NCBI RefSeq assembly: GCF_001687545.1
Contig: NZ_CP016545.1
Coordinates: 682,001-746,000, forward strand
Direction of reading: 5' to 3'
Length of the DNA: 64,000 bases
DNA from: Paraurantiacibacter namhicola
GTDB lineage: Bacteria > Pseudomonadota > Alphaproteobacteria > Sphingomonadales > Sphingomonadaceae
This document shows, piece after piece, positions 10,653-34,661 of the stretch (position 1 is the stretch's first letter; every line of letters starts with the position of its first letter). The notes below the pieces were generated by a model. That model made no database searches, was not told the DNA's origin, and worked only from the letters and a program-made list of their open reading frames with translations. A program made the position numbers and the translations under genes.

Positions 10653-10885
10653 GGCAACCCCCATATCACATTATTGCGCGGGCCGATTCGATTGATTCAA
10701 AGGCCCGGCCACCGCGTCTTCCGCAGAAAAATTTTTCCCACGATTCATTTTCCCGCTTGCACTGCGCGCCAGTCCAGCAATTCCGGCGCGTCGCTGCGTT
10801 GCAACGCGATAACACACCTGTGCGATCCGTCGCCCGGGCGCGTTAAATCGACCTTAACCCTCTTGCGTCCGACTTGCTGTTGATT

Positions 10886-10897
10886 CACTATCTAGTG
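10886..10897. promoter_or_regulatory. NrdR-like box upstream of nrdA
   Basis: CACTATCTAGTG, a palindrome with 5-bp arms, in the promoter region of nrdA. It matches the NrdR box upstream of nrdB in this window except that two bases (TA) are missing from the centre. NrdR is the general repressor of bacterial ribonucleotide reductase genes. No convincing second box is visible one spacing unit away. Confidence 0.5.
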
Positions 10898-10915
10898 GTT
10901 GGACATGGGGGTGTA

Positions 10916-11010
10916 CCCACAAGACCTTGTTACCTGCCTCGGCGAGACCCATCTTGCCGGAAGGGTGAGGAGTCTCGCGGAAACACGCTGATGCAAGGTC
11001 CGGCTGTGGG
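10916..11010 (+). promoter_or_regulatory. Candidate structured leader RNA of nrdA
   Basis: Three nested perfect helices are visible: CCCACA (10916) with TGTGGG (11005), GACCTTG (10923) with CAAGGTC (10994), and GCGAGAC (10942) with GTCTCGC (10972). An alternative pairing of ACCC (10947) with GGGT (10963) would compete with part of the innermost helix. The element ends about 120 nt before the nrdA start. It does not show the conserved boxes of cobalamin, TPP, FMN or glycine riboswitches. The rest of 10653-11133 shows only the NrdR-like box, this element and a GAAC-N7-GAAC match. Confidence 0.45.
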
Positions 11011-11133
11011 CAGTCAGGGGATAAGTTTTCCTCGGTCTTGCCGCGCGAATTGGTAGGATGGGCCTTCGTCCTGCGATTCGAACACATGAAGAACATGCGC
11101 GGCACCGACCGCGTTCGAACGGGGATGGATACG

Positions 11134-13191
11134 ATGGAATTTCGAGAGCGGGACGAGCAGGCAATGGAATTGGACGACATCCGCGAAGACGCCCCGGCTT
11201 CCGAAAGCAAGGCAGCAGGCGCAAAGCCGGCTGCGAAGCCCGCAAAGAAGAAGGCAGTGAGCATGGAAACCGAGGATCAAGGCAGCGACGCGCTGGTGGC
11301 CGAAAAGACCGCCGAAGCGATGGGCGAAGCCCTGAAGACAGCAGCGAAATCCGCCGCGGAACCGGATTCCAAGAAGGTCAATCCGCGCCGTTTCACCATC
11401 GAGATGGATGCAGAGCGTGACGCGAACCTGACCGAATTCGGCAAGGCCACGCTGAACGATCGCTACCTGCTTCCGGGCGAAAGCTACCAGGACCTGTTCG
11501 CCCGCGTGGCCGATGCCTATGCCGATGACCAGGACCATGCGCAGCGCCTGTACGATTACATCAGCCGCCTTTGGTTCATGCCGGCAACGCCCGTCCTCTC
11601 CAACGGCGGCACGGGCCGCGGCCTGCCCATTTCCTGCTATCTCAATTCCGTGTCCGACAGCCTCGATGGCATCGTGGGCACCTGGAACGAGAATGTCTGG
11701 CTGGCGTCCAAGGGCGGCGGCATCGGCACTTATTGGGGCAATGTGCGCGGCATCGGGGAGCCGGTCGGCCTGAACGGCAAGACCAGCGGCATCATTCCCT
11801 TCGTGCGCGTGATGGACAGCCTGACGCTGGCGATTTCGCAGGGTTCGCTGCGCCGCGGTTCGGCCGCCTGCTACCTCGACGTCAGCCACCCGGAAATCGA
11901 GGAGTTCCTCGAGATCCGCAAACCCTCGGGCGACTTCAATCGCAAGGCGCTGAACCTGCACCACGGCGTGCTTCTGACCGACGAATTCATGGAAGCCGTC
12001 CGCGCGGGCGAGAAGTTCGAGTTGAAATCGCCCAAGGATGGCAGCGTGCGCGGCGAAGTGGATGCGCGTTCGCTCTTCCAGAAACTGGTCGAAACGCGCC
12101 TTGCCACGGGTGAGCCCTACATCGTGTTCTCGGACACGGTGAACCGCATGATGCCCAAGCATCACCGCGAGCTGGGCCTGAAGGTTTCCACCTCCAACCT
12201 GTGCAGCGAAATCACCCTGCCCACCGGGATCGACCACCTCGGCAACGATCGCACGGCCGTGTGCTGCCTCTCCTCGCTCAACCTGGAAAAGTGGGACGAG
12301 TGGAACACTGACAAGCAGTTCATCGAAGACGTGATGCGCATGCTCGACAACGTGCTGCAGGACTATATCGACCGCGCGCCGGACGAGATGGCCCGCGCCA
12401 AGTATTCCGCTGCGCGCGAACGCAGCGTGGGCATGGGCGTGATGGGCTTCCACTCCTTCCTGCAGATGAAGAACATCGGCATGGAAAGCGCCATGGCCAA
12501 GGCCTGGAACATGAAGATGTTCAAGCACATCAGCTCCAAGGCGAACGAGGCCAGCCTGATGCTGGCGCAGGAACGCGGGCCGTGCCCCGATGCTGCCGAA
12601 ACCGGCGCGATGGAACGCTTCAGCTGCAAGATGGCAATCGCGCCCACCGCGTCGATCAGCATCATCTGCGGCGGCACCAGCGCCTGCATCGAGCCGATCC
12701 CGGCCAATATCTACACCCACAAGACGCTGTCCGGAAGCTTCGTGGTGAAGAACCCGTATCTGGAAAAGCTGCTGCAGAAGAAGAGCAAGGATTCCACCAA
12801 TGTCTGGAATTCGATCCTGGAGAAGGGCGGCAGCGTCCAGCACCTCGACTTCCTGACGGACGAGGAAAAGGCGGCCTTCAAGACCAGCTTCGAGATTGAC
12901 CAGCGGTGGCTGCTGGAATTCGCCGCCGACCGCGCGCCCTTCATCGATCAGGCGCAGAGCCTCAACCTCTTCATCCCTGCCGATGTCGACAAGTGGGACC
13001 TGATGATGCTGCACTTCCAGGCCTGGGAGAAGGGCATCAAGTCGCTCTACTACCTGCGCTCCAAGAGCGTGCAGCGCGCAGGGTTCGCCGGCGGCGTGGA
13101 AGCGGACAACACCGCCGATGCGCAGAAGATCGAGCTGTCCGCCGGTGCCGGGCAGGAAACCGATTACGAGGAATGCCTGAGCTGCCAGTAG
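11134..13191 (+). CDS. nrdA: Ribonucleoside-diphosphate reductase class Ia, alpha subunit
   Basis: 685 aa from ATG 11134 ('MEFRERDE'); ATGs at 11086, 11095, 11125 and 11164 are alternatives. It makes deoxynucleotides for DNA synthesis with NrdB. Visible: first substrate-site Cys ('GLPISCYLNSV'), catalytic-loop Cys ('NLCSEITLP'), second Cys ('AVCCLSSLNL') and the C-terminal redox tail ending 'CLSCQ'. The N-terminal ~80 residues are Ala/Lys-rich and low complexity, and the conserved fold starts at about 'RRFTIEMDAERDANLTEFG'. I see no ATP-cone domain, so the usual dATP off-switch appears absent. nrdB is 6.6 kb away instead of adjacent. The long leader and NrdR-like box upstream suggest layered control. 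Confidence 0.96.
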   Translation: MEFRERDEQAMELDDIREDAPASESKAAGAKPAAKPAKKKAVSMETEDQGSDALVAEKTAEAMGEALKTAAKSAAEPDSKKVNPRRFTIEMDAERDANLTEFGKATLNDRYLLPGESYQDLFARVADAYADDQDHAQRLYDYISRLWFMPATPVLSNGGTGRGLPISCYLNSVSDSLDGIVGTWNENVWLASKGGGIGTYWGNVRGIGEPVGLNGKTSGIIPFVRVMDSLTLAISQGSLRRGSAACYLDVSHPEIEEFLEIRKPSGDFNRKALNLHHGVLLTDEFMEAVRAGEKFELKSPKDGSVRGEVDARSLFQKLVETRLATGEPYIVFSDTVNRMMPKHHRELGLKVSTSNLCSEITLPTGIDHLGNDRTAVCCLSSLNLEKWDEWNTDKQFIEDVMRMLDNVLQDYIDRAPDEMARAKYSAARERSVGMGVMGFHSFLQMKNIGMESAMAKAWNMKMFKHISSKANEASLMLAQERGPCPDAAETGAMERFSCKMAIAPTASISIICGGTSACIEPIPANIYTHKTLSGSFVVKNPYLEKLLQKKSKDSTNVWNSILEKGGSVQHLDFLTDEEKAAFKTSFEIDQRWLLEFAADRAPFIDQAQSLNLFIPADVDKWDLMMLHFQAWEKGIKSLYYLRSKSVQRAGFAGGVEADNTADAQKIELSAGAGQETDYEECLSCQ

Positions 13192-19638: not shown

Positions 19639-19686
19639 ATCCCGTAATTTGTGGGATTCACAAGTGCGAAACACTATCTATAGTGG
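19639..19686. promoter_or_regulatory. Paired NrdR boxes upstream of nrdB
   Basis: ACACTATCTATAGTGG (19671-19686) is one base away from the core of the NrdR consensus. Exactly 32 nt upstream, 19639-19654 ends in the same half-site GTGG and keeps several other positions, which fits the usual tandem arrangement of NrdR boxes three helical turns apart. Confidence 0.65.
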
Positions 19687-34586: not shown

Positions 34587-34661
34587 GCGGGCGTAGCTCA
34601 GGGGTAGAGCACAACCTTGCCAAGGTTGGGGTCGGGCGTTCGAATCGCCTCGCCCGCTCCA
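34587..34661 (+). tRNA. tRNA-Gly (GCC)
   Basis: 75 nt including an encoded CCA. Acceptor stem GCGGGCG/CGCCCGC, D arm GCTC/GAGC, anticodon stem CAACC/GGTTG with loop TTGCCAA (anticodon GCC), and T arm with TTCGAAT. A short T-run follows at 34662. Confidence 0.97.

Follow-up and report, generated by a model that had tools for sequence, protein, structure and literature searches.

What does the DNA between the promoter and the start codon of a ribonucleotide reductase (RNR) gene encode: a structured RNA, a set of protein-binding sites, or both at once? RNR sets the dNTP pool of the cell, and its usual control is allosteric, combined with transcription factors. The question arises in a stretch of 64,000 nucleotides of Paraurantiacibacter namhicola DNA (‘the window’, whose numbering is used throughout). 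An initial annotation, made from the letters alone, placed three nested helices—outer, middle and inner—between an NrdR-like box and the nrdA start, and proposed that they form a structured leader RNA that tunes RNR. Part of that proposal stands. The nrdA leader is structured, and its structure covaries in relatives; the specific nested helices fail, and three other hairpins, P2, P3 and P4, take their place.

The gene and its predicted promoter are as follows.

11134–13191, forward strand: nrdA, the class I ribonucleotide reductase large subunit, without an ATP-cone.
10863–10868, forward strand: TTGCGT, the −35-like hexamer of the promoter predicted for nrdA, 17 bp 5′ of the −10-like one.

The ATG at 11134 is the start that relatives have in common, and GGGG at 11120–11123 is a possible ribosome site. 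Domain searches find two domains in NrdA, all-alpha and barrel; the ATP-cone off-switch is absent, as the annotation had stated. The genome holds a single ATP-cone match (C1:1628730-1628987), within a 159-codon NrdR-like frame, and since this is probably NrdR, the repressor may be alone in sensing dATP. For comparison, we gathered 122 distinct nrdA leaders by a DNA search of the family and by protein searches, and read sequence conservation from an alignment of 74 of these. CTTGCG of the −35-like element and the −10-like CACTAT are conserved in the alignment, the former at up to 2 bits. A strict sigma70 consensus scan does not call this promoter. The predicted transcript start is at ~10898. 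Other conserved blocks are CTGTGGG, GGGGATAAG and GATTCGAAC-N7-GAAC.

The three hairpins lie 3′ of the predicted start.

10926–10972, forward strand: hairpin P2, ~18 pairs, with an apical stem CGGCGAGA-CCCA-UCUUGCCG at 10940–10959; identified by swap tests and fold z-scores.
11017–11033, forward strand: hairpin P3, GGGGA UAAGUUU UCCUC, with the conserved GGGGATAAG on its 5′ side; identified by covariation and sense-strand bias.
11046–11080, forward strand: hairpin P4, with an upper stem UAGGAUGG-GCCU-UCGUCCUG and a lower stem CGAAUUG/CGAUUCG; identified by covariation, sense-strand bias and folding.

Compensatory changes occur in all three among 59 nrdA leaders from this family. Pair counts in MAFFT columns detected no covariation for the helices of the initial annotation, and hid P2 as well, because its sequence varies. 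We replaced them with swap tests, which need no alignment of the variable part, and in which the duplex energy of a leader's own arms is compared with that of arms exchanged between leaders. Among 52 representatives, swap z is −7.3 for P2, −3.7 for P3 and −7.1 for P4 (negative control, −0.8), in tests that treat leaders as exchangeable and correct for phylogeny only in part. When arms are exchanged between nearest relatives, p is 2e-6, 0.003 and 2e-4, respectively (negative control, 0.39). These nearest-relative swaps and the flat controls speak against a phylogenetic artefact. RNAalifold, applied to the plain 55-row alignment of P3/P4, returned no consensus structure.

Folding gives a similar picture. 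Sliding fold z-scores peak at P2, P3 and P4, with means of about −1.7, −1.9 and −1.3, and windows upstream in the same leaders lie between −0.25 and 0.2. P2 has pair probabilities of 0.90 to 0.9999 in the predicted transcript from 10898. Among the hairpins of the window itself P2 dominates, and P3 is weak (z −0.29). Across leaders P2 has a median of 16 pairs and an apex at a near-constant distance 3′ of the second NrdR-like box. It is conserved mainly as a shape. At least 14 pairs together with the fixed apex occur in 44 of 59 leaders versus 26% of shuffles, by a joint criterion of size and place chosen after P2 sizes and apex positions had been seen. For P3 and P4 the sense strand gives a better fold than the antisense (p = 9e-7 and 4e-5), which points to RNA; for P2 the strand bias is not significant (p = 0.14), and the upstream control shows none. 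The apex of P2 reads CCCAT or CCATAT in about a third of leaders, including the window's own, and is a possible protein or kissing-loop site. TAGGAT at 11054–11059, first taken for a second −10 hexamer, is now doubtful as such because it lies within the covarying P4.

A covariance model of P3/P4, built from 55 leaders, matches 66 of 200 genomes of the family, in 35 of 89 genera, once per genome. In every case where the position of nrdA was compared (63/63), the match lies directly upstream of nrdA on the same strand. A class-wide search matched 2 of 241 genomes, both of the same family. For 23 held-out sequences, a set that may still include near relatives of the seed sequences, swap z is −3.2 for P3 and −5.2 for P4. 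The held-out covariation score is 0.291, as high as none of 500 shuffles, and 15 cells are changed on both sides versus 4.3 expected, in an alignment fitted to the model. P2–P4 covary, P3 and P4 are sense-biased, and the P3/P4 unit is found only before nrdA. A literature search, with subscription journals mostly outside its reach, found no paper on an nrdA leader RNA.

The same stretch is also dense in candidate DNA sites, listed here without strand.

10843–10858: CtrA-like TTAA-N7-TTAA, tentative, just 5′ of the −35 element and partly conserved in relatives.
10882–10886: GANTC (CcrM-type), overlapping the −10 region; in 61/74 leaders.
10886–10897: NrdR-like box 1, CACTATCTAGTG, overlapping the −10-like CACTAT; most of its positions vary little or not at all across the 74 leaders.
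10919–10930: NrdR-like box 2, ACAAGACCTTGT (ACTAGACCTAGT in relatives), its centre 33 bp from that of box 1.
10970–10974: GANTC (as GAGTC), at the 3′ foot of P2; GANTC nearby in 48/74 leaders.
11005–11013: conserved block TGTGGGCAG, with a weak likeness to a DnaA box; TGTGGG within it serves as the 3′ arm in the annotation's outer helix.
11075–11079: GANTC (as GATTC), immediately 5′ of the LexA box; in 64/74 leaders.
11080–11094: alphaproteobacterial LexA box GAACACATGAAGAAC (GAAC-N7-GAAC); motif in 98/122 leaders.

In Pseudomonas aeruginosa, NrdR box 1 of nrdA overlaps the −10 element and box 2 is functional (PMC4409342). The arrangement here is alike, with two NrdR-like boxes, the first on the −10-like element, and also an nrdR-like gene and a canonical, full-length NrdR box, CACTATCTATAGTG, upstream of nrdB (19672–19685). 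nrdB does not adjoin nrdA; it lies ~6.6 kb 3′ of the nrdA end. Judged as a putative NrdR operator (a paired, CACTATATATAGTG-type palindrome on a promoter), box 1 is shortened yet conserved, 2 bp shorter than the P. aeruginosa boxes, and box 2 is degenerate and inside the predicted leader, unlike its counterpart. The LexA box is the reverse form of the alphaproteobacterial GTTC-N7-GTTC. It is present in most leaders and also upstream of recA and lexA here, as a LexA operator would be, and its conservation before nrdA suggests SOS control of nrdA in the family. Unlike the usual LexA box, it lies ~185 bp 3′ of the predicted start, beside P4 and off the predicted promoter.

The GANTC sites, conserved across species at the predicted promoter, are likely CcrM-type sites. 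They recall Caulobacter, where nrdA is listed as an essential gene whose promoter carries a conserved GANTC motif, whose expression drops without CcrM and which belongs to the DnaA regulon (PMC3973325). Conserved GANTC sites likewise lie 5′ of nrdA here; the Caulobacter passages concern the promoter, whereas a structured leader is the feature here. An apparent long-range helix between two GANTC blocks was rejected, since GANTC is self-complementary and such pairing is meaningless. The other assignments are weaker. The exact CtrA-like motif occurs in 9 of 61 leaders. DnaA-like blocks near nrdA recall the E. coli nrdAB promoter with its DnaA boxes (PMC8203912), but here they are weak matches only: no block reaches TTWTNCACA or close to it, there is no exact TTATCCACA in the window, and the blocks match 6–7 of 9 positions by eye.

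Could these sites be the whole story? The stretch would then be a stacked promoter (CtrA-like, GANTC, an NrdR pair, DnaA-like, LexA), and the hairpins by-products of dyads and of G+C-rich sequence. The conserved columns do coincide with operator motifs, GANTC and LexA boxes are conserved, and Caulobacter nrdA provides a precedent, in its GANTC promoter motif, DnaA regulon membership and CcrM dependence (PMC3973325). In the reading favoured below, too, NrdR, GANTC and LexA sites account for the greater part of the strictly conserved sequence, with the 5′ arms of the annotation's outer and middle helices included. Even P3 is affected. GGGGATAA, on its 5′ side, is common to nrdA and nrdB in opposite orientation, occurring upstream of nrdB in 16 of 30 genomes, so that part of P3's conservation is at the level of DNA; the block probably has a DNA role too. 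The nrdB copies are those of the window, at ~19556, and of 15 of 29 other nrdB upstream regions; the window copy forms an inverted repeat, CTTTATC-CCC-GATAAAG. Operators alone nonetheless appear unlikely to suffice. Operator arms are fixed, whereas the arms of P2–P4 vary with compensation, and in P3 and P4 there is the bias towards the sense strand. Each of P3/P4 and the LexA box also occurs alone: a strict LexA box is missing from eight leaders that have P3/P4, and P3/P4 from 22 that have the box. The RNA unit is thus no by-product of the LexA box. Ten leaders of Porphyrobacter/Erythrobacter type without P3/P4 have a promoter-like TTGGCA-N18-TATAGA, its −10 abutting the LexA box.

If RNA is involved, it might be a riboswitch. 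P2–P4 would then be the aptamer, binding a nucleotide-related ligand and thereby switching nrdA translation, perhaps through a P3 3′ arm that alternates between the P3 5′ arm and the GGGG ribosome site. Riboswitches for 2′-deoxyguanosine and adenosylcobalamin (AdoCbl) control RNR genes elsewhere, and so the gene class fits. Like those, the present element is a structured leader before an RNR gene, and P2–P4 show one mark of a riboswitch, a secondary structure that is conserved through compensatory changes at the 5′ end of an mRNA (transcription being predicted). Conserved unpaired blocks lie between the covarying stems, and base pairing between the P3 3′ arm and the G-rich ribosome site is possible. 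That pairing, however, does not covary (own arms −11.83, swapped arms −11.96), and the leader's sense strand holds no terminator; neither form of expression platform, a terminator or covarying sequestration of the ribosome site, was found. The conserved blocks can also be read as DNA motifs, and P2 is kept mainly in shape. The architecture differs from that of the AdoCbl and 2′-deoxyguanosine riboswitches, and Rfam 15 has no match to the leader, at the gathering threshold or at E <= 10, which bears out the annotation's remark that the leader fits no known riboswitch consensus. (The window's sole Rfam match is a tRNA gene at 34587–34658.) Nothing observed speaks for control by a ligand, and we consider a riboswitch very unlikely.

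The nested fold proposed at the outset fares worse still.

10916–11010, forward strand: three nested complementary helices, with arms CCCACA (10916–10921) and TGTGGG (11005–11010) in the outer, GACCTTG (10923–10929) and CAAGGTC (10994–11000) in the middle, and GCGAGAC (10942–10948) and GTCTCGC (10972–10978) in the inner; the outer and middle without covariation, and the whole disfavoured in a longer transcript.

The complementary segments are indeed there, over 95 nt, and their order exceeds chance as was claimed: in isolation the segment folds into the nested form at −42.6 kcal/mol (z = −3.11), and none of 200 dinucleotide shuffles is as stable. RNAalifold predicts a comparable closing helix for some subgroups. 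The covariation that the annotation looked to for support is lacking in the outer and middle arms (own versus swapped arms, nearest relatives, p = 0.91; swap z −0.9). Counted by alignment column, pairing is 71% for the outer arms, which is what randomly dealt arms give; it is 46% for the middle helix and 44% for the inner. The middle 3′ arm and both inner arms show little conservation: most columns are under 0.6 bit and none exceeds ~1 bit. The middle helix's 5′ arm lies inside box 2, as does the end of the outer 5′ arm, and the complementarity of the outer and middle arms is attributable to two conserved blocks that match by chance; one group of leaders has CTGGGGACA in place of CTGTGGG, which breaks the outer helix. 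When the transcript is extended to its predicted start at 10898, no pair probability of the nested helices exceeds 0.1 and most are under 0.02, since the competing hairpin at 10926–10972, P2, wins; P2 also excludes the inner helix. The nested fold now has only a slim chance of being correct. The annotation had named an upstream small ORF as a possible refutation. Translation attenuation through such an ORF is scarcely credible: the leader contains some ATG and GTG codons, but no alignment position has a start codon in more than 36 of the 74 leaders, the commonest start (a GTG) falls in the TGTGGG block, the lengths of the variable part spread across all three frames, and no conserved upstream ORF that could account for the leader emerges from the 74.

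The account we favour, and hold to be moderately probable, is that P2–P4 form a covarying, cis-acting leader RNA of nrdA, transcribed from an NrdR-controlled promoter and overlapping a DNA control region. The promoter, at ~10863–10891, would transcribe nrdA with a 5′ untranslated leader of ~236 nt. In this genome and in many relatives the leader would fold, in order, into the long P2 right after box 2, P3 with its conserved AU-rich loop, and P4 just 5′ of the LexA box. It would act in cis, after initiation, to tune nrdA mRNA stability, translation, or both. Because terminator, conserved upstream ORF and covarying pairing of P3 with the ribosome site are all absent, control by a protein or nuclease is preferred to a riboswitch, and as effector a small ligand is less likely than an RNA-binding protein or a ribonuclease. 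As DNA, the same stretch would be read by NrdR for dNTP level, through GANTC and CcrM for the cell cycle, and by LexA for DNA damage. A bolder version, that this is a new class of cis-regulatory RNA, confined to nrdA and to one alphaproteobacterial family, which senses a nucleotide-related signal and adjusts RNR synthesis where the ATP-cone switch is missing, strikes us as quite unlikely.

What lies before this ATP-cone-less NrdA, then, is a covarying RNA leader set amid NrdR, GANTC and LexA sites. If functional, it would offer a new RNA family that can be tested directly and already has a covariance model, and would add a layer of RNA to the control of dNTP supply in a widespread group: Erythrobacter, Qipengyuania, Altererythrobacter, Novosphingobium and their relatives.
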